A DNA stretch of 64,000 nucleotides from Candidatus Marinarcus aquaticus (GTDB lineage Bacteria > Campylobacterota > Campylobacteria > Campylobacterales > Arcobacteraceae), in contig NZ_PDKN01000004.1 in the NCBI RefSeq assembly GCF_004116335.1, positions 1 to 64,000 on the forward strand, read 5' to 3'. Positions 1 through 59,695 of the stretch are shown piece after piece. The notes under the pieces were generated by a model. That model ran no database searches. It saw only the letters and a list, made by a program, of their open reading frames with translations, and was not told the DNA's origin. A program made the translations under genes and the position numbers. The stretch's first letter is position 1. Each line of letters starts with the position of its first letter.

Positions 1-416
1 GACATGGTAAGACCATCAGTGCAGATATGATTGAAGGGTATAAAGGGTTGTTGGATAATATCAGTAAATCCACACACATGATTGAAGAGATTGCCAATGC
101 CAGTAAAGAGCAAGAAGCAGGGATTACTCAAATCAATGATGCCGTGACACAACTGGATCAACAAACTCAACAAAATGCATCAATCGCAAATCAGACACAA
201 GAGATTGCAATGCAAACAGACAGTATTGCCAAGGACATTGTCAATGATGCCAATAAAAAAGAGTTTTGGGGGAAAGCCGACGCAAAAGCACTGCAAGCAA
301 AAAAAGAGAATCTTTCACAAGAGATAAAAAAAGAAAACCTTAAACACACTTCAAAACCAAAAGAGAGTCAAAAAGTGCACAGCTCTCATGAAAATGCAAC
401 GTGGGAAGAGTTTTAA
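1..416 (+). CDS. Methyl-accepting chemotaxis protein, C-terminal end (cut by window start)
   Basis: The reading frame is open from the first bases of the window (codons in phase with position 3), so only the C-terminal part is seen. Residues such as GKTISADMIEGY and the repeated helical QEAGITQINDAVTQLDQQTQQNA pattern are typical of the cytoplasmic signalling and methylation helices of Campylobacterota chemoreceptors. The last residues, ATWEEF after a flexible lysine-rich linker, resemble the C-terminal tether pentapeptide (NWETF type) that recruits CheR or CheB; that role is inferred. The sensor domain is outside the window, so the ligand is unknown. Confidence 0.85.
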   Translation, partial: HGKTISADMIEGYKGLLDNISKSTHMIEEIANASKEQEAGITQINDAVTQLDQQTQQNASIANQTQEIAMQTDSIAKDIVNDANKKEFWGKADAKALQAKKENLSQEIKKENLKHTSKPKESQKVHSSHENATWEEF

Positions 417-418
417 TC

Positions 419-2107
419 TTATGATATTTGAATAGGCAGAGTAATACAAAACTCTGTTCCTATTTGTAATTGATGATTATATCGATACTGCACATTATGC
501 ACTTCAATTTGTCCATTGAGTTGTTGAGTAATGACTTGATGGACAATATATAATCCCATTCCTTTGCCTTGTGATTGGTGTTTGGTGGTAAAATAGGGTT
601 CAAATATTTTATCCATAATATCACTTGGTATGCCTTGCGCATTATCTTTAATGGTGATGGTAATGTTCTCTTTAGTGGCTTGAGCCAAAAAGAAAATATA
701 ACGCTCTTTTGAAGGATTGCTCATATGTGCTTCAATCGAGTTTTTAATCAATACCATCAAGACTTGAACCAAAGCATTTTTAGAACCTTTCATTTTAAGG
801 TTAATACTTTTTTTATCGGTGATAAAAGCAATGCCATTTTTATCTAAAAGCTCTTCTAATTTTTCTAATGCTTCTTGCTTTAACTCTAAAAGTTGAAATG
901 AAGTGATACTTGAATCTATTTTGAAGAAGTTTTTAAAATCATCAATAGTGTGTGAAAGTCCAATACACGTTGCAGTGATTTGGTCAAGATTATTATACAA
1001 CTCATTCGTTTTTAAAAGATCCATTTGCATCATCATTTTTGAACTGGACGACAAACTTGAAATGACATTCAAAGGTTGCCGCCATTGGTGTGCTAAGTTT
1101 TCTAAAAGTTTACCAATGGATTCAAGTTTGACTTGTTGAATCACATATTTGTTTTGATCATTGAATTTTTCCAAAATAAAATTGACTCGTGTTCGTAATA
1201 AATAAACAAAAAAGAGACTCGCTGATACAAGTATCAAAACAATCACTACAATGGTATTGTTAATAATCGCTTTGTTTCCAAAATCTTTTTGTTTGAGTGC
1301 AATATAAAGCTTATGTTGATTGCTTTGAAACAGCATCTCTTTATTAATAATCTCTTCGGTGTTAATTCGAGAATAGACATTCAACGTATTGGACCAATTG
1401 TTTTTGCTCTCATCGTTACTGTAAACCACATTGTTTTTTTCATCCACCAAATAGATGTTAAAAATATCAGAACTGACCGTACTATCAAGGATCTCTTTCA
1501 TTTGTAAATTAATAATAATCATGCCCACAATTTTGTTGTTTTTATAAACAGCATTGGCCAAACGAAGCGTGGGGACATACGGTACTTCTATTTGTTCGTT
1601 TTCGATATTTAAATCCAATTTTGAAAGATAGGTTTCATCCTCTTTTAAACGCTTTATCTCATCAACATAATATCGATGATCTTTTTGTTGCAATAGGTGT
1701 ATTGGAACTTTAGTGATACGGTTTTGAGCCGCATCTTTATTGATACGAATTTGTTCTTGCCCTTGCTCATTTAAATAACGAATTTGAAGTATGGTACTAT
1801 TAGCTTGTGCAAGCGTATAAAAAAGCTCTTCAACATCATTTTTATTGTTATGATTTTTTAAATAGCGTTTTAAAAATGTACTGTTTTGTATCGATTTTAA
1901 AAGTTTTTTGGCCTCTTGAATATATTCAACATAAGCATGTTGTTTATATTTTAAGACCAATTGGGATTTTTGTTCAATTTCAGACTCTTCTATTTGTTGT
2001 TGCAAGTAATACATTACTAATGTAGCAATGACTATCAGAAACAAACCAAATATAAAAAAAAGTTTGGTCAATTTAGAAAAAATAGTTTTATGATTGAATC
2101 TGTCCAT
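419..2107 (-). CDS. Membrane sensor histidine kinase, HWRQPLN type
   Basis: 562-residue orphan sensor kinase. An N-terminal membrane helix (about 13-33) and a second at about 283-304 enclose a periplasmic region of about 250 residues that is probably a Cache-type sensor. No clear HAMP domain is visible. The phospho-acceptor is His340 in AHQWRQPLN, a variant H-box common in this phylum. The ATPase domain has the N-box (KNSIEAH), DNAQGIP and GKGMGLYIV glycine motifs. No response regulator is adjacent; the neighbours are a convergent chemoreceptor gene, whose stop lies 2 bases away, and cowN. The ligand cannot be read from the sequence. Confidence 0.88.
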   Translation of the reverse strand: MDRFNHKTIFSKLTKLFFIFGLFLIVIATLVMYYLQQQIEESEIEQKSQLVLKYKQHAYVEYIQEAKKLLKSIQNSTFLKRYLKNHNNKNDVEELFYTLAQANSTILQIRYLNEQGQEQIRINKDAAQNRITKVPIHLLQQKDHRYYVDEIKRLKEDETYLSKLDLNIENEQIEVPYVPTLRLANAVYKNNKIVGMIIINLQMKEILDSTVSSDIFNIYLVDEKNNVVYSNDESKNNWSNTLNVYSRINTEEIINKEMLFQSNQHKLYIALKQKDFGNKAIINNTIVVIVLILVSASLFFVYLLRTRVNFILEKFNDQNKYVIQQVKLESIGKLLENLAHQWRQPLNVISSLSSSSKMMMQMDLLKTNELYNNLDQITATCIGLSHTIDDFKNFFKIDSSITSFQLLELKQEALEKLEELLDKNGIAFITDKKSINLKMKGSKNALVQVLMVLIKNSIEAHMSNPSKERYIFFLAQATKENITITIKDNAQGIPSDIMDKIFEPYFTTKHQSQGKGMGLYIVHQVITQQLNGQIEVHNVQYRYNHQLQIGTEFCITLPIQIS

Positions 2108-2195
2108 AACTGTGTCCCATAATTTCTCTTAAATCATAGTAACACATTAGTGATTAAATTATCACATTTATATGATTATCTGCTCCATTGATTTT

Positions 2196-2510
2196 TTAAC
2201 AACACTCTTGTTCACATTTATGAAGTGCCAATTGTGCAACTTCATCTTGGGCATCTTCAAACAAATCATCAATATAAAAAGAGTTTGAACAGACCAAATA
2301 AAGCAGTTTCTCTTCAGGATCATCTTTGGGATTTCTACTGTAATATGCTTGTGGAATCTTAGGCATAAACTTTTCCCAATAGATATTCATATTTTTAGGA
2401 TCTTTTAAAACTCGTATCATGTGGTCTATCACAACACATGCATTTTCAAAACAATCAATGTTTTTAAAACTGATATAACTCTCATCTACTCTGATTTCAT
2501 TTTGCGACAT
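2196..2510 (-). CDS. cowN: CowN-like protein, protects nitrogenase from carbon monoxide
   Basis: About 104 residues. The opening (YISFKNIDCFENACVVIDHM), an aromatic NIYWEKFMPKIP segment and the Cys-Cys C-terminus (CEQECC) match what I know of CowN, a small soluble protein that sustains N2 fixation when CO is present by shielding nitrogenase. I chose the ATG at 2510 because GGAAGAGA lies just upstream; an in-frame extension to 2594 would run through the promoter and adds an unrelated hydrophobic leader. A TATAAT-like -10 (complement of 2539-2544) would give a short leader. It is divergent from an AraC-type regulator. No nif genes are in the window, so the nitrogenase link rests on the family match. 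Confidence 0.8.
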   Translation of the reverse strand: MSQNEIRVDESYISFKNIDCFENACVVIDHMIRVLKDPKNMNIYWEKFMPKIPQAYYSRNPKDDPEEKLLYLVCSNSFYIDDLFEDAQDEVAQLALHKCEQECC

Positions 2511-2532
2511 ATCTTCTCTTCCTTTTTTCATC

Positions 2533-2551
2533 TTGTATATTATATATACAA
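2533..2551. promoter_or_regulatory. Perfect inverted repeat over the cowN promoter, candidate operator
   Basis: TTGTATAT-TAT-ATATACAA is a perfect 8-bp inverted repeat with a 3-bp spacer. It covers the minus-strand -10 hexamer of cowN (2539-2544) in the cowN/AraC intergenic region. Symmetry and position suggest a repressor or activator site, but AT-rich DNA makes short palindromes by chance and the binding protein is unknown. Confidence 0.4.
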
Positions 2552-2570
2552 TAAACAAAAAATTATATGT

Positions 2571-2576
2571 TATAAT
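2571..2576 (+). promoter_or_regulatory. -10 hexamer of the AraC-type regulator
   Basis: TATAAT is placed so that transcription would start near 2583. That leaves a leader of about 30 bases before the TTG at 2615 but almost none before the TTG at 2588, which supports 2615 as the start codon. No clear -35 element is seen, as is usual in this phylum. Confidence 0.5.
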
Positions 2577-2614
2577 ACGTAAATAAATTGACATTTTACG
2601 AAAATGGAGTCTTG

Positions 2615-3631
2615 TTGCAACGAATTTCCACCATTACATTTGAATATGTTTTAAAAGCTTTATGCGCCAACACCAAACTCTCTATGGATGATATGCTTGC
2701 TTTTGTCGACTTAAATGAAGAGGATTTAAAAAATAATCCCAAAGGCATAGAAAGCCATAAACTTTCAGATATCTTCAGATACTGTATAGAAAATACTCAA
2801 AATAAAACATTGGCTTTGGATATTGGACAGTCAATTTCTTACCACTCCTTAGGTCTTTTAGGTTATTTACTTTTAAATACACAAACACTTAAAGAGATGA
2901 TTGAAAAATTTGCACACTACCAACAACTCGTAGGTGGGTATTTAAAATTCCATTTCAGTGAAAATGAACACTCTTATAAATTCACCATTTATATCAATGA
3001 AAACCCCTATATTCCTGTTCCAAGTTATCATGCAGAGGTACACTTATCTGCAATTGTAAGTATCTTGACTCAAATTCTAGGACAACAAGTTGTTCCTTCT
3101 CAAACTTTTTTTTCACAAGAAAAAATTCAAGACTTAACCGCCTATCATCGACTTTTTGGAGAGAATATCTTTTTTAGCAAAGATGAAAACTCCATACTCT
3201 TTAATAAGAATGAACTCAATATCCCTGTAAAAAACTCAAACCCCTCAATGTTGGGATATTTTGAGAATCAAGCCAATGCGATTTTACAAGATTTGAATCA
3301 AACCTCTTATTATGGAAAAGTGAAAACCATTATTGTAAAAAATATTGGAGAACATGACATCAACATTGAGTTTGTCGCTTCACAAATGCAACTTAGTGTT
3401 CGCACCTTGCAAAATTACTTAAAAAGTGAAAAGAAAAACTTCAGAGATGCGTTTACAGCTGTAAGAATGCAACTGGCAGATCACTACTTACAAACAACCA
3501 AAATGGATTATGCGAGCATTGCATATTTACTGGGCTACTCAGAAGCGAGCTCTTTTTTCAGAGCCTATAAAAAATGGACGAAGAAAACACCTTCGAGTCA
3601 CAAAAAGGGCATAAAAAAAGGCAAGGAGTAA
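2615..3631 (+). CDS. AraC-family transcriptional regulator
   Basis: About 338 residues. The N-terminal two thirds resemble the arabinose-binding-type ligand domain of the OruR/ArgR-like AraC subgroup (the HSLGLLGYLLLNTQTLKEMI region is typical). The C-terminal 100 residues form two helix-turn-helix motifs: VASQMQLSVRTLQNYL, then YASIAYLLGYSEASSFFRAYKKW, the AraC signature. I place the start at TTG 2615 because GGAG sits 6-9 bases upstream; TTG 2588 in the same frame is possible. The gene is divergent from cowN, so it may control it, but nothing in the sequence shows this. It ends in a strong terminator that overlaps its stop codon. Confidence 0.85.
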   Translation: MQRISTITFEYVLKALCANTKLSMDDMLAFVDLNEEDLKNNPKGIESHKLSDIFRYCIENTQNKTLALDIGQSISYHSLGLLGYLLLNTQTLKEMIEKFAHYQQLVGGYLKFHFSENEHSYKFTIYINENPYIPVPSYHAEVHLSAIVSILTQILGQQVVPSQTFFSQEKIQDLTAYHRLFGENIFFSKDENSILFNKNELNIPVKNSNPSMLGYFENQANAILQDLNQTSYYGKVKTIIVKNIGEHDINIEFVASQMQLSVRTLQNYLKSEKKNFRDAFTAVRMQLADHYLQTTKMDYASIAYLLGYSEASSFFRAYKKWTKKTPSSHKKGIKKGKE

Positions 3632-10820: not shown

Positions 10821-12011
10821 CTATTTGATTGAGTTTATATCCAACACTTTGCTTCGTACAATCTTGTGTGTGCTTTGTAAATCAATCACATCATCTATCT
10901 TTACATCTTCCAAAGCAATAATTTTATTCTCTTTGGTCACTTGTACATACCCTTTTTTAATTCGTTTATCCGGATGATTGAGCTCAAAGGAATTTTTTAA
11001 AAACTCCACATCATTGAATCTGTTTTGAAGTTGTTGAGAAAATGCTTGGTTAAACTTCTCTTTGACACTTTTAATATTCTCTTCAATGAACTTAAACTTA
11101 TTGGCAAAGGAGTTTTGCTTGAATGATTGTATCAAGTGATTAAGAGCTTGAATTTTATTATTGAGTACATAGGTAAAACTTCGATTGTAATCATTGTGCA
11201 ACTCATCGAGATATTGAAGCATCTCATTCATATCTGGCAATGCAATCTCGATGGCATTGGATGGTGTGGCAGCACGTACGTCTGCTACAAAATCAGAAAT
11301 CACAAAATCAACCTCATGCCCCACTGCAGAAATCACTGGGGTTGAAGCTTCATAAATGGCTTGAGCCACACATTCTTCATTGAATGCCCACAAATCTTCA
11401 ATGCTTCCTCCACCACGCCCTACAATAAGAATATCTGCTTTTAAGCTGTCTGCTTTTTTTATGGCTTTTACTATATCCTCTTTGGCTCCTTGCCCTTGAA
11501 CCAAAGCAGGTATTAAAATAAATTTTGTCAATGGCCAACGATGCAATGCCACCTTTTTCATATCTTGTATGGCGGCACCTGTACTTGAAGTTACAATGGC
11601 AATGGTTTTAGGATATTTGGGCAAACTTTTTTTAATCTCAGGATTAAAATACCCTTGTGCTTGCAGTCTCTTTTTAAGTTGTTCATACGCTAAAGCCAAC
11701 TCTCCAATGCCAGAAGGTTCAATTTTTTGGCACAACAGTTGATAGTTTCCTCGTGGGGCATACACAGTAATTGAACCCGAGATATTTATCTTTTGCCCTA
11801 CTTCAAGTCTGAATTTAAGATATTGCGCATTGCCTTTAAACATCACACAAGAGATGGTTGATTTGTCATCTTTGATTGAGAAATAAATGTGTCCGGAGTT
11901 GTGATAGGTTAAATTAGAGATTTCCCCTTCAACATAGACATAAGAAAAGGTGGTTTCTAAAAGAGATTTGATTTGTCCGTTAAGTTCTGAGACAGTGATT
12001 GGGCCATTCAT
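10821..12011 (-). CDS. xseA: Exodeoxyribonuclease VII large subunit
   Basis: 396 residues, a little shorter than the E. coli enzyme. It degrades single-stranded DNA together with XseB. The N-terminal OB fold (ITVSELNGQIKSLLE to about 100) is followed by the catalytic domain with AIVTSSTGAAIQD, GRGGGSIEDLWAFNEE and SAVGHEVDFVISDFVAD. The helical C-terminal part is compact. The small subunit xseB is not adjacent. It lies downstream of ubiE across 156 bases that contain a nested inverted repeat. Confidence 0.95.
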   Translation of the reverse strand: MNGPITVSELNGQIKSLLETTFSYVYVEGEISNLTYHNSGHIYFSIKDDKSTISCVMFKGNAQYLKFRLEVGQKINISGSITVYAPRGNYQLLCQKIEPSGIGELALAYEQLKKRLQAQGYFNPEIKKSLPKYPKTIAIVTSSTGAAIQDMKKVALHRWPLTKFILIPALVQGQGAKEDIVKAIKKADSLKADILIVGRGGGSIEDLWAFNEECVAQAIYEASTPVISAVGHEVDFVISDFVADVRAATPSNAIEIALPDMNEMLQYLDELHNDYNRSFTYVLNNKIQALNHLIQSFKQNSFANKFKFIEENIKSVKEKFNQAFSQQLQNRFNDVEFLKNSFELNHPDKRIKKGYVQVTKENKIIALEDVKIDDVIDLQSTHKIVRSKVLDINSIK

Positions 12012-12074
12012 TTTTCTTCCATTGTTTTATTTAAAGTTTTAAGCTTTTAAGATATTTTTTTAAAGACTCAAGAC

Positions 12075-12136
12075 GAAATAAAAATTTTATGATGGATGAT
12101 ACATGGAAGTATCTGAGTGAATAAAATTTCTATTTC
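12075..12136. repeat. Nested inverted repeat, copy A of a structured intergenic element
   Basis: Outer arms GAAATAAAAATTTTAT (12075-12090) and ATAAAATTTCTATTTC (12121-12136) are complementary at 15 of 16 positions. They enclose an inner hairpin GATAC-ATGGAA-GTATC (12098-12113), with internal loops GATGGAT and TGAGTGA. The layout and loop bases match the element at 57053-57111, while the stem sequences differ. It lies 31 bases after the ubiE stop and before xseA. A weaker pair outside it (12055-12065 with 12147-12157, 9 of 11) may extend the structure. Confidence 0.7.
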
Positions 12137-12167
12137 AACAAAGAAGCTTCAAAAAAGAACTGAAAGA

Positions 12168-12878
12168 TTAAATCTTTCGTGCAATAAACAGTGTTGATAT
12201 ATTCATAGAAAACCCTTTTACAAAAATAGGTTCTAATCCAGCATTTTGTAACTCTTTAGAAAGGTTTTCTGTTGTTAAAAACTCATCAATAGAGTTAGGT
12301 AAATACGTATAGGCCTCTTTATTTTTAGAGATAATTCCACCTAAGGTTGGTAACACTTTATTCATATAGAAATCTTTAATATAATCAAGCGGTGTCTCTT
12401 TTGGATTTTTAGTAAACTCTAAAATTACAAGCAGTCCATCTTTTTTAAGCACACGTGCAAATTCATCAAATGCTTTTTGTCGTTCAACCACGTTTCGAAT
12501 ACCATAAGAAATCGAGATAATATCAGCCATACCATCTTCAAAAGGCATCGATGCAGCCCCTGATTCAATAAACTCCACTTCTGGCAGTTTTTGTTTAGCC
12601 ACTTCCATCATTCCAACACTTGGGTCAACGCCTACAATGTTATTAAGCTCAACATTGGCTTGTGCTGCTGTTTTTTGCCAATAATCGATCATATCCCCTG
12701 TACCACACGCCACATCAATGACTTTATCAATCACTTTTTTATCATAAAATGAGTAAGCCAAATTGCACGCTTTATTTCTCCAAGATTTATCAATCCCCAT
12801 ACTTAAGACACGATTGGCAATATCGTATTTACCTGCAATTTGATCAAACATTGATACAATTTTTTCTTGTTTATCCAT
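12168..12878 (-). CDS. ubiE: Demethylmenaquinone / ubiquinone methyltransferase UbiE (MenG)
   Basis: 236 residues. It transfers a methyl group from S-adenosylmethionine to demethylmenaquinone in the last step of menaquinone synthesis. The SAM-binding motif VIDVACGTGDMI, the family signature YDIANRVLSMGIDKSWR near the N-terminus and SISYGIRNV are clear. In this phylum menaquinone is the usual quinone, so the MenG role is more likely. It is 21 bases after the small membrane protein gene, so it may be the last gene of the long upstream operon. Confidence 0.93.
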   Translation of the reverse strand: MDKQEKIVSMFDQIAGKYDIANRVLSMGIDKSWRNKACNLAYSFYDKKVIDKVIDVACGTGDMIDYWQKTAAQANVELNNIVGVDPSVGMMEVAKQKLPEVEFIESGAASMPFEDGMADIISISYGIRNVVERQKAFDEFARVLKKDGLLVILEFTKNPKETPLDYIKDFYMNKVLPTLGGIISKNKEAYTYLPNSIDEFLTTENLSKELQNAGLEPIFVKGFSMNISTLFIARKI

Positions 12879-55303: not shown

Positions 55304-56737
55304 TTATTTTCGACGAGTGTTTTGTCGAATGGAGATGATGAGTTGGTAAATCAAGTAGGCGATGATGACTTTAAAAATAAGTTCTAAACCATTTATATGA
55401 CTATCACTATACATAAAAGAAAATGGATTTATTGCTTTTGCTGGTAATTCCAACAACAAATCCTTGGTACTTAATATGTAAAATCCTATTATTAAAAATA
55501 CAAACGATAATGTATACTTCTTTAACTTTTGATTTTCTAATATATTATCAATCAACAATGGTATAGATATACTAATAAAACAATAACCAAATATATTTGC
55601 TATCAAAGGTTTCATAAACTCTATTTTTACATCTAAAAAATAGTTCTGAATAAATCCACATCCCATGCTTAAAATAAGTATCCAAAACAGTGCTAAAAGC
55701 CAATTTTGTGAATGTTGACTAGAATAATCATGTAATTTAAATATTAATTTTTCTTTAAAATTATCTTTCCAAGTTATTTCTTTATCATACTGTCTCATCT
55801 CTAGTGCATAAAACTTATTCGCATCGATTATATTATTTTCTTGTTCAAAAGAATCCTTTATAATTCGCGCTGTCTCTCTATTTTGAACAGGAAAATCTAT
55901 ATTAGAAAATCTTGTTTTATTAAATAACCTTATATCAGTAAACGTAACTGGATTCTGTATTTTTATATTTTTTAATGTCAATAAATTATAAAAACTACTA
56001 TTATGAAAATCTAATGCATCAAATTGTGAATTATTACCTAATATCCATACATTATTTTTAAAAGAGGTATTGCTAATTGCAAGCAGATTTAATTTTTCTA
56101 GCCTTAATAAAAAATCATCTTCAAAATTACAATTATCGATTATAAGGCTAGATTCACCTCTTGGTGATAAAATTACAGTTTTTTTAGAAAAATTTATACC
56201 TTTTAAAAATAAATTTCTAGCAAAAAAACATTTATCTATTGTTAATGGTTCTGTAATATGATTGGGTAATTTAAGTTCATCATAGAATTTACATAACATA
56301 AAGTTCAATTTCTTTTTAAATGCATATTTTTTAAAATCTGCAACTTCTAAAAAAGTACACTGATAAAACATAATATTTAATTCATTAAATACTGTATTTA
56401 AATCATTTACATGATATTCAAAAGAATAAAAATTAGTTGCTAAATCCATACGATTATCTTCATAATGGTTATACAAATATTCTTTTTGAAATTTAGGAAA
56501 TATGACAAAACTATAGATTTGTCTTTCTGATAAGACATATGAATCTTCTAGACTTATATCTTTTATAGTTGATAAATCATCTTGAATAAACTGCCAGAAA
56601 TCATTAACTTTCTTATTATTCCAGATTTTAACATTATCATGTATATCATACCAATCATCTTTTTCACAATGTAAAATACATTTATCTTTATTTTCAAAAA
56701 CCTCTAATGTACAATCATGCAAACTACAACTACTCAT
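55304..56737 (-). CDS. Cys-rich / pentapeptide-like / four-helix membrane protein
   Basis: 477 residues. Cys4, Cys9, Cys20 and Cys24 (C-x4-C-x10-C-x3-C, with His7 and His23) suggest a zinc knot at the N-terminus. Residues about 190-290 show irregular five-residue repeats (IDNCNF, ISNTSF, FHNSSF) that would form a beta-helix. The last 150 residues hold four membrane helices and the ending LIYQLIISIRQNTRRK. The gene is visibly richer in A+T than its neighbours, so acquisition from outside is likely. Function not known; an ion-channel-like or effector role is only a guess. Confidence 0.75.
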   Translation of the reverse strand: MSSCSLHDCTLEVFENKDKCILHCEKDDWYDIHDNVKIWNNKKVNDFWQFIQDDLSTIKDISLEDSYVLSERQIYSFVIFPKFQKEYLYNHYEDNRMDLATNFYSFEYHVNDLNTVFNELNIMFYQCTFLEVADFKKYAFKKKLNFMLCKFYDELKLPNHITEPLTIDKCFFARNLFLKGINFSKKTVILSPRGESSLIIDNCNFEDDFLLRLEKLNLLAISNTSFKNNVWILGNNSQFDALDFHNSSFYNLLTLKNIKIQNPVTFTDIRLFNKTRFSNIDFPVQNRETARIIKDSFEQENNIIDANKFYALEMRQYDKEITWKDNFKEKLIFKLHDYSSQHSQNWLLALFWILILSMGCGFIQNYFLDVKIEFMKPLIANIFGYCFISISIPLLIDNILENQKLKKYTLSFVFLIIGFYILSTKDLLLELPAKAINPFSFMYSDSHINGLELIFKVIIAYLIYQLIISIRQNTRRK

Positions 56738-57155
56738 TTATACTCTTTTAAATTTATTGTCTCAATATTATCATAATATATATTATTATCTTAAAAAGCT
56801 AAAGCTTTTCGCTTACACTTTCTTTCTCCGTAAAGAAACTTAGCAAAGAACCTCCTCAACAGCTTCAGAGTTTACTTCGTAAATTCCTTCAAATCAAAAA
56901 ATATTTTCCTCTTCTCAGCTCTTGCAGGAGTTGAGTTTTAATATTCCCATGTACGTTGTTATATTGAAGTTTTTAAGTAGTTTTTTTAGATTTTAATTAA
57001 TTTTTTTACAAATATTTGTTTATAAGGATTAGATTTTATGGAAGTTCAAGGCGAAGAGAGATTTTAAAGCGGAGCGTACATGAAGTACGTGAGCATTTAA
57101 AATCTCTCTTCAACGCAGAAATTGTGTGAAAGATGATGCTTAGAAACAAATATTT
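56738..57155. other. Non-coding stretch downstream of secF
   Basis: About 418 bases with no convincing gene. It contains the promoter region of the 477-residue protein gene, a palindromic AAAAGCTAAAGCTTTT segment near 56795-56810, an AT-rich stretch and the nested inverted repeats at 57008-57157. Confidence 0.7.
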
Positions 57156-57157
57156 CT
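57008..57157. repeat. Outer inverted repeat enclosing copy B of the structured element
   Basis: ACAAATATTTGTTTATAAG (57008-57026) and the arm at 57139-57157 are complementary at 17 of 19 positions. They surround the nested hairpin at 57053-57111 and end in the secF stop codon. The whole block of 150 bases could fold as a single long structure or be a small non-autonomous mobile element. Confidence 0.6.
57053..57111. repeat. Nested inverted repeat, copy B of a structured intergenic element
   Basis: Arms GAAGAGAGATTTTAAA (57053-57068) and TTTAAAATCTCTCTTC (57096-57111) are a perfect 16-bp pair. An inner hairpin CGTAC-ATGAA-GTACG (57075-57089) is set between internal loops GCGGAG and TGAGCA. 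Layout, loop bases and flanks (TCAAGGC before, AACGCAGAA after) parallel copy A at 12075-12136. It lies 44 bases after the secF stop. Confidence 0.75.
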
Positions 57158-58127
57158 AGACGGTGCCTTTCTCATACATAGCCCGCATTTTCTCTTTCTC
57201 TTTTTGTTTTTTGAGCTTCTCAGCCTCACGTGCTCTATAATTATTCACAGAGAACTTCAACTGTGCCAAAAATGACGAAGCAACAAAGATAGATGAATAG
57301 GTCCCCACAATGATACCTACAACCATCGTAAAGGCAAATCCATGAATAATCTCACCTCCAAATACAAACAACGTTACCACCACGAAGAATGTGGTTAATG
57401 ATGTCAACGTAGTTCTTGAAAGTGTTCGTGAAACCGACTCATTAATGACCAACAGAAGTTTCGACTCTTTAGAGGTATTAATCCCTTCTCGAATACGATC
57501 AAATACAATAATTGTATCGTTCAGCGAGTATCCCATGATTGTTAAAATCGCGGCTAAAATATCCAAGTTCACATCCACTTGAAAAAGTGCCAATGCCCCA
57601 ATGGCAATGGTCACGTCATGAATGAGTGCCAAAATAGAAGCCACCGCAAAACGCCACTCAAATCGGAAACTCACATACGCCAAAATCACAAGCAATGACA
57701 GAGACATCGCCATAATCCCTTTTTCTCGTAGTTCATCCCCTACTTTTGGTCCCACCATGTCCACACGTCGAACTTCAAATGCTCCCGTAGGATCCAAAAG
57801 TGTATGTACGGTATCGCCAATATCATTTCCCAGTTCCGTTGACGACCCAGAGATTCGAATAACAATCTCTTGTGGAGTTCCAAACTCCGTGATACTTGCA
57901 TTGGCAAACTTTGGATGAGCTTGCAGTATCTGACGAATATCATCAATGGGTGCATTTTGCTCATATTTTACTTGTACGAGTGTTCCTCCCGCAAAGTCAA
58001 TACCAAAATTCAAACCTTTTGTAAAAATAATCCCTAATGAACCTAAAAACAAAAGTGCAGAAAGCGCTAAAAATGGAAGTCGTTTTCCCATAAAGTCAAA
58101 GATTTTATCTGATTTAAAAATTTCCAT
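57156..58127 (-). CDS. secF: Protein translocase subunit SecF
   Basis: 323 residues from the ATG that overlaps the secD stop codon (TAATG). Six membrane helices with the SecF signature GIDFAGGT near 45 and the VGYSLNDTIIVFDRIREG type stretch near 215. It works with SecD to pull exported chains through SecYEG using the proton gradient. The basic C-terminal tail (REAEKLKKQKEKEKMRAM) is long. Confidence 0.96.
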   Translation of the reverse strand: MEIFKSDKIFDFMGKRLPFLALSALLFLGSLGIIFTKGLNFGIDFAGGTLVQVKYEQNAPIDDIRQILQAHPKFANASITEFGTPQEIVIRISGSSTELGNDIGDTVHTLLDPTGAFEVRRVDMVGPKVGDELREKGIMAMSLSLLVILAYVSFRFEWRFAVASILALIHDVTIAIGALALFQVDVNLDILAAILTIMGYSLNDTIIVFDRIREGINTSKESKLLLVINESVSRTLSRTTLTSLTTFFVVVTLFVFGGEIIHGFAFTMVVGIIVGTYSSIFVASSFLAQLKFSVNNYRAREAEKLKKQKEKEKMRAMYEKGTV

Positions 58128-59695
58128 TATTTCACTCCAAACCAAAACAGTGTGTTTTTAGATTTTTGAATTTTATTTAAAAGCATCTCATAAATACCGT
58201 GTGTCCCTAAAATTGCAGTGAGCATTGAGGCCAAAATACCAATAGAAATCGTTACAGCAAATCCTTTAATAGGACCCGTACCGTATGCATACAAAATCAC
58301 TGCTACTAAAAGCGTGGTAATGTTTGCATCTAAAATTGCACTCATGGCATTGGCGTATCCATCTTCAATGGCTTTACCAATTGAGGTGCCTGATTTAAGC
58401 AACTCTCGTATACGCTCTGTGATAATAACGTTTGCATCCACAGCCATACCCACAGTCAAAACAATCCCTGCCATACCCGGCAGCGTTAAGGTTGCGCCAA
58501 ACATCGCCATAACAGCAACGATAATAAAGATGTTGGTAATCAATGCAATGTTTGCCACGATTCCTGCCATTCGGTAATAAACAATCATAAAAACAACCAC
58601 ACAAATAAAACCTAAAATAAGTGCAAGCAGTGATGCTTGAATCGAATCCGCACCCAAACTTGGTCCCACACTTCGTTTCTCTAAAAGTTTCACGCTTGCT
58701 GGTAATGCCCCACTTCGTAAAGCAATCGCCACGTTTCCTGCTTCAGTAATGGTAAATCCACCTGAGATTTGACCACTTCCTCCACCAATTCGTTCTCGAA
58801 TATTCGGTGCTGAGTAGACTTTTCCATCCAACACCACCGCCAGTCGTTTACCGATACTTTTTGCAGTGAATTCACCAAAAATTCTTGCCCCACTTGAATT
58901 AAGTGTAAAGTTAATGATGGGTTGATTGGATTGGTCAAACGCCACTTTAGCATCGATGATTTGACTTCCATTTAAAATCGGAATCTCTTTGACCAAATAT
59001 TTAAGCGCTGGGTCATCTTGTTGTTCTAAGATGATATCACCATATTGTGCCGCTTGTTCTGGACTTAAAGAATAAACTTGATCCGCCATATCTTCATCGA
59101 CGGCCATGAGCTCTAAGTTGGCAGGTTTTGAGATAAGCTCTCGTGCGGCTCTCTCCTCTTCAATGGTTTTAATTCCTGGTAACTCCACCACAATGTCGGC
59201 TTCACCCTGTCGTATTACAGTTGGTTCTGCTAAACCAAATTGATCCAAACGATTTCGAATGGTCTCTACAGCTTGTGTCACTGAGAGGTCTTTTACAATA
59301 GCTTGTTCTTCCGCAGTTAAAGTAATCACATAGTCCAACGGTGTTGGTTTTTGGATACTTAATCCTTTGATAGTCGAAAGCATTTCATCTACTTTTGGCA
59401 GTTCATCTTCATCTAAAACCATGAAACGAATGGTATCATTTTTCATGCTTAAATCATCAATTAAAATCTCTTCATCTTCAGCGAAGTATTTAATTGACGT
59501 TGCGTATGTTTTAATTTTTGAAGAGACTGCTTCATCGGTATTCACCCCTAAAAGCATGTGCAATCCACCTTGTAAATCAAGCCCTAAGTTAATCTTTTTT
59601 CCACTCTCCATTTGTAAAAATGAAGGCATAGCAAAAACAACACCAAAGACGATACTGAGTGCAAATATTATTAGTCTGTAATTAAAGATTTTCAA
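58127..59695 (-). CDS. secD: Protein translocase subunit SecD
   Basis: 522 residues. One N-terminal helix, a large periplasmic P1 region (LGLDLQGGLHMLLG near 35) and five C-terminal helices with MAVDANVIITERIREL. It pairs with SecF. The start is a TTG after AGGGA (MKIFNYRLIIF). A hairpin lies between it and yajC. Confidence 0.96.
   Translation of the reverse strand: MKIFNYRLIIFALSIVFGVVFAMPSFLQMESGKKINLGLDLQGGLHMLLGVNTDEAVSSKIKTYATSIKYFAEDEEILIDDLSMKNDTIRFMVLDEDELPKVDEMLSTIKGLSIQKPTPLDYVITLTAEEQAIVKDLSVTQAVETIRNRLDQFGLAEPTVIRQGEADIVVELPGIKTIEEERAARELISKPANLELMAVDEDMADQVYSLSPEQAAQYGDIILEQQDDPALKYLVKEIPILNGSQIIDAKVAFDQSNQPIINFTLNSSGARIFGEFTAKSIGKRLAVVLDGKVYSAPNIRERIGGGSGQISGGFTITEAGNVAIALRSGALPASVKLLEKRSVGPSLGADSIQASLLALILGFICVVVFMIVYYRMAGIVANIALITNIFIIVAVMAMFGATLTLPGMAGIVLTVGMAVDANVIITERIRELLKSGTSIGKAIEDGYANAMSAILDANITTLLVAVILYAYGTGPIKGFAVTISIGILASMLTAILGTHGIYEMLLNKIQKSKNTLFWFGVK

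Follow-up and report, generated by a model that had tools for sequence, protein, structure and literature searches.

Intergenic hairpins past stop codons in Candidatus Marinarcus aquaticus almost certainly belong to the ERIC (IRU/RU-1) superfamily

Two gaps between genes in the window, the 64,000-nucleotide stretch of Candidatus Marinarcus aquaticus DNA analysed here, hold nested hairpins of one plan. What are these elements, which of their strands folds, and what holds them at the ends of genes? A sequence-only reading had described the first, copy A in the ubiE-xseA gap (12075-12136), as two outer arms, an inner hairpin and two loops, and we find this layout as described; the outer arms (GAAATAAAAATTTTAT and ATAAAATTTCTATTTC) are 94% complementary across a spacer of 30 nt. 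The sister copy that it placed at 57 kb (copy B, with an inner CGTAC-ATGAA-GTACG hairpin) also exists, and its gene names ubiE, xseA and secF agree with the profile matches given below.

10821..12011, - strand: xseA (TIGR00237), the tandem gene downstream of copy A
12046..12166, + strand: copy A, whole element (model R2 match over 120 positions, 74.7 bits, E 5.6e-12, with copy A in the R2 training set)
12068..12074, + strand: box 1 of copy A in an internal loop, TCAAGAC (consensus TCAAGGC; ERIC counterpart AAGGC)
12075..12090, + strand: stem P1 of copy A, 5' arm
12091..12097, + strand: internal loop of copy A, 5' side, GATGGAT (tandem G.A possible with the facing TGA)
12098..12113, + strand: apical hairpin P2 of copy A, GATAC-ATGGAA-GTATC
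12114..12120, + strand: internal loop of copy A, 3' side, TGAGTGA (TGA near-invariant across the family)
12121..12136, + strand: stem P1 of copy A, 3' arm
12134..12141, + strand: box 3 of copy A, TTCAACAA (consensus TTCAACGC; ERIC counterpart CAACGC)
12168..12878, - strand: ubiE (NF001244, above cut-off), ending at copy A
57010..57155, + strand: copy B, full hairpin, with a basal 12-bp inverted repeat (AAATATTTGTTT/AAACAAATATTT)
57046..57114, + strand: core of copy B (model R1 match, 83.8 bits, E 3.6e-13, with this core in the R1 training set)
57156..58145, - strand: secF (TIGR00966), ending at copy B

The 3' limit of copy A falls just short of the ubiE stop codon, and the last base of copy B (57155) directly touches that of secF (57156-57158). 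Both copies fold far better than dinucleotide shuffles (n=200), with z-scores of -3.8 (+) and -7.3 (-) for copy A and -6.7/-7.7 for copy B; for each strand of either copy, 0 of 200 shuffles folded equally well. The 176-nt region of copy B reaches -58.9 kcal/mol on the + strand versus -42.1 on the - strand. Beyond copy B lies a predicted protein of 477 aa (window 55304-56737, - strand) that matched nothing in Pfam, NCBIfam or PADLOC.

Because the arms differ between copies, a BLAST search of copy A against its own genome returned only itself, and scanning the window with a permissive regular expression gave noise alone. The flanks provided a way in. A flank pattern (TCAAGNCGAAN{35,65}TTCAAC) matched three times in the genome, each time at a real copy, and its backwards control not at all. 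The third copy lies in the uvrD-truB gap, on the contig that also carries A and B, and all of its stem letters are different. Applied to 80 relatives, the pattern yielded 36 further members, all from the window's bacterial family, which aligned cleanly with the three copies of this genome into the 39-sequence alignment on which covariance model R1 is based. In this genome R1 detects, at E < 0.01, about 30 copies, 27 of them outside its training set, and finds copies in 45 of 61 genomes of the same bacterial family (0 to 40 per genome), with a patchy distribution between genera. In one relative, two copies of equal score stand 466 bases apart in one orientation (G043:C1:1924458 and 1924994), possibly a recent tandem duplication.

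Pairing is held while letters change. In the 39 sequences, 95% of stem cells are paired, 17 of 21 pairs show change on both sides (183 such changes), and the covariation score is 0.620, compared with 0.163 for shuffled sequences and at most 0.143 with partners slid; none of 500 shuffles did as well. For 86 copies of ~120 nt, RNAalifold yields a fold with 41 pairs, of which 39 show compensatory changes, and a cross-group set of 62 sequences scores 0.746 versus 0.191 shuffled. The sequence-only reading had proposed a dispersed family under selection as folded nucleic acid, to be sought with a covariance model, and had named as contrary outcomes the lack of further copies and pairing at the level of shuffles; the copy number and the covariation both bear its proposal out. 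No Rfam 15 family matched the element at gathering or E-value thresholds, strong as its covariance models are.

The 62-nt core recognized at first holds, and the whole is larger: conservation continues into the flanks with a uniform register of pairing, and a basal helix together with one more conserved internal loop brings the nested hairpin to 120-146 nt. From the base upwards, a variable basal helix is followed by tandem G.A and TTTTG/CAAAA, and then by an internal loop in which a near-invariant TCAAGGC faces AACGCAGA. Above this loop stand stem P1 (~15 bp, free in sequence), a loop with tandem G.A (GGA facing TGA) closed by a G.U pair, and the apical stem NNTAC/GTANN. Several relatives have GA-NN-GA facing TGA-N'N'-GA in the internal loop, where the middle two positions can pair.

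Which strand folds can be read from the mismatches. Over 86 copies read on the + strand, and leaving out the conserved G.U pair, we counted 300 G.U and 55 A.C where column composition predicts 385 and 207, so that the stems strongly avoid A.C but tolerate G.U. The flanks have a (G+T)/(A+C) ratio of 0.98, and base composition thus offers no explanation for the imbalance; in tandem loci alone the ratio of G.U to A.C is 198:32. It follows from this pattern that the + strand is the folded one, which places the fold antisense to the gene ending there. The earlier proposal that the element acts in the 3' ends of minus-strand genes therefore stands as to position, whereas the idea that it simply forms the minus-strand mRNA's 3' end does not fit a wobble pattern that favours the + strand. 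A family of trans-acting small RNAs, transcribed from the + strand, would account for the G.U excess on that strand, and the tandem G.A and conserved internal loops resemble protein- or ligand-binding RNA. We consider this improbable, since a search upstream of 57 copies revealed no conserved motif that could serve as a promoter for the folded strand, and space is short at some tandem loci, with just 41-61 nt between the core and the start of the next gene. Any role as a transcript of that strand at tandem loci is thus hypothetical.

The position of the element follows a strong rule. The gene on its 3' side runs towards it in 94 of 102 copies (63 tandem, 31 convergent; nearly all from the window's bacterial family), and the stop codon usually lies 26-51 nt from the core, which supports the fixed position past stop codons of minus-strand genes that had been anticipated. 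Recurrent neighbours confirmed by NCBIfam in this genome are carA (carbamoyl-phosphate synthase small subunit), guaB, purH, gyrB and nrdB, along with nfo, uvrB, rho, fabI and htpG; three other neighbours we take, by eye from their sequences, to be metH, lepA and uvrD. In single-contig genomes the strand of the element mostly tracks the chromosome half. An account of orientation by replication strand was rejected on the copy at lepA in one genome (G014), which is an exception to the chromosome-half rule and keeps the usual relation to its gene; gene orientation thus looks primary. Several copies flank apparent accessory genes, with a conserved gene on the opposite side, and in one relative (G009, L188) a gene at 1501-2634 that is TIR-domain-like at its start stands between two copies.

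At orthologous loci the copies have changed in a paired manner, with compensatory changes at 24 of the 41 pairs for carA, 21 for fabI, 19 for htpG, 17 for uvrB and 14 for guaB. Such frequent compensation at the same gene across genomes makes these copies look old and maintained by selection; re-insertion at one site is less likely, because the flanks are conserved. Compensatory change of this kind, a location directly past the stops of housekeeping genes (carA, guaB, purH, gyrB, nrdB and others) and a long hairpin that is stable on either strand would also suit a structure that acts in cis on the upstream gene, as a terminator or as a stabiliser of its mRNA 3' end, with no link to a mobile element. 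We regard such an origin as unlikely: the element is multi-copy and patchy across genera, its wobble pattern favours a strand that transcription of the upstream gene does not produce, its boxes are those of ERIC, and a relative carries near-identical copies with target duplications, as set out below.

The sequence-only reading knew of no named family with this plan, and here our result differs. Copies A and B almost certainly belong to the ERIC superfamily, also called IRU or RU-1 (Sharples and Lloyd 1990 and Hulton 1991, as cited in PMC2229807). The element shares the apical core GGAGCTTAC..GTAAGTGA and the central core GGAGCTTAC..GTAAGTGAC with ERIC, whose boxes CAAGGCG (5') and CAACGC (3') occur in it in matching order and spacing. 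The E. coli RU-1 consensus (PMC2759123) contains exactly CAAGGCG-14..23-GGAGCNTAC-1..7-GTANGTGA-14..23-CAACGC, and this exact three-box pattern occurs in 24 of 111 members versus 0 of 200,000 shuffles. Model R2, with no ERIC in its training set, matches the E. coli ERICs at ybhJ-ybhI and pgk-fbaA over the full length of the model (25-30 bits, E 2e-4 to 3e-3), with no other match in 15 kb. Of 5426 E. coli genomes, 5375 carry a 44-base ERIC core. Under our models the E. coli elements score 23-30 bits (R3 slightly below R2) and their stem P1 pairs poorly, so the case for membership is built from the length, the apical hairpin and the three boxes rather than from covariation in P1.

Like ERIC, the element shows the core GGAGCTTAC-N-GTAAGTGA with tandem G.A, and is a single imperfect palindrome folding into one long hairpin (120-146 nt versus ~127 bp) that is MITE-like, intergenic, dispersed in many copies and placed near gene 3' ends. 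Unlike in E. coli, where P1 is irregular, P1 is regular and covarying here, and the window's family of elements follows a strong orientation rule. Published descriptions place ERIC, as a MITE with 30 to 711 copies per genome, in Enterobacteriaceae and Vibrionaceae (PMC10969869); the Campylobacterota (in the order of Sulfurimonas) and Desulfobacterota among the hosts found here lie outside that range. This mismatch concerns the described range and not the structure of the element, and we therefore call it a member of the superfamily.

The wider host range emerged from a contig pattern scan, which gave mostly chance matches and three usable leads, in Sulfurimonas, Methylophaga and Desulfobacterales, with many copies among them. 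Of 200 genomes from the window's order, to which Sulfurimonas also belongs, 49 carry the element; for the order of the Desulfobacterales lead the figure is 101 of 146 sampled genomes, and for the class of the Methylophaga lead it is 116 of 274. It follows an apparent metH both in Methylophaga (L091/L205) and in the window's bacterial family (L020, L180, L221), which could reflect a shared site preference or transfer.

Mobility is seen directly in a Desulfobacterota relative from the Desulfobacterales draw (G318). Its element is a 142-bp unit with inverted-repeat ends (GAGCCASTTTCAAAACGT); matches to these ends number 527 versus 1 in the control, corresponding to about 260 copies. All seven copies read with both flanks are bordered by an exact 4-bp direct repeat (TAAT, CATA, TACT, TAAG, AATC, ACTC and CGAT), and these duplications show that the element has transposed in this genome. 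They contrast with the TA reported at the termini of ERIC (PMC2229807), a difference that concerns the copies of this genome. Its contigs often break at the element (L254-L265).

A hairpin that is intergenic, multi-copy and strand-specific could also be a REP-type element mobilized by a RAYT (Y1 transposase). That route would not be expected to leave target duplications, and the 4-bp repeats in the relative disagree with it. The window's own genome, its sister G001 and a third genome (G017) are rich in copies with no Y1_Tnp match, and we hold the REP reading to be very improbable. Across genomes, the occurrence of the element showed no correlation with that of Y1 transposases.

Integron attC sites stand 3' of a gene, fold on the strand antisense to it and have variable arms. 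The element agrees with attC in position and strand relation, and its variable arms likewise carry conserved points. An integron integrase gene adjoins the guaB copy in G001, of the window's genus (L266:843-1883 and 2072-3100), with an apparent partial second left half of the element between the two, and an integrase fragment lies ~0.8 kb from the guaB copy of G030. A recombination site in the manner of attC is nevertheless highly improbable: on inspection of the sequence the order of R boxes does not fit and the consensus boxes differ, the copies are single and dispersed rather than in arrays, and the window's genome, with its ~30 copies, has no integron integrase match at 1e-20. Element and integron integrase were likewise uncorrelated across genomes.

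Taken as a whole, the observations are very probably best explained by MITE-like hairpins of the ERIC superfamily that are moved in trans and kept past stop codons. The element would be a non-autonomous unit of ~120-146 bp, folding over its full length into one long hairpin, and a transposase acting in trans and recognizing the inverted-repeat ends would move it. Insertions would survive immediately behind a stop codon, in the orientation that puts the folded strand antisense to the gene. Small size, inverted repeats, non-autonomy and folded transcripts are also features of other bacterial MITEs such as NEMIS/Correia and RUP; these have other hosts and are not known to share the core boxes of the element. 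For some of them, an effect on mRNA processing has been proposed (PMC2229807). In Yersinia, ERIC copies 3' of genes are co-transcribed and influence the stability of the upstream transcript via RNase E in an orientation-dependent way (PMC2229807; see also PMC10969869). By analogy, the hairpin would most likely serve as an orientation-dependent 3'-end structure that sets RNA decay or transcript ends, a mechanism at the locus that we offer tentatively. While the orientation bias and the maintenance of the copies are observed, the RNA effect is inferred from this precedent, and any role at an individual locus is putative. A more speculative reading, rather unlikely in our view, sees the ERIC type as an ancient family shared across phyla, with copies that became fixed functional parts of housekeeping loci; there the antisense strand would have to fold, and compensatory change would have kept it folding at the same loci across genera, through an undescribed role as antisense RNA or single-stranded DNA.

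Within the open-access literature, the wide presence in Campylobacterota and Desulfobacterota is new here, with an earlier report possible; so are the ~260-copy 142-bp version, the orientation rule and the compensatory change at orthologous loci. The main text of an intergenic survey that covered Arcobacter sp. L (Stav et al. 2019, PMC6429828) does not mention the element. In those open-access sources ERIC is described from gamma-proteobacteria. ERIC-PCR is widely used in typing. It has also been applied to Arcobacter and Campylobacter, beyond the described host range of ERIC. A covariance model that joins the E. coli ERIC to elements of Campylobacterota and Desulfobacterota gives the superfamily a deep alignment in which the folded strand can be seen. 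The transposase could be sought in G318, with its ~260 copies and clean 4-bp duplications, and the orthologous copies with their compensatory changes make a cellular role testable.
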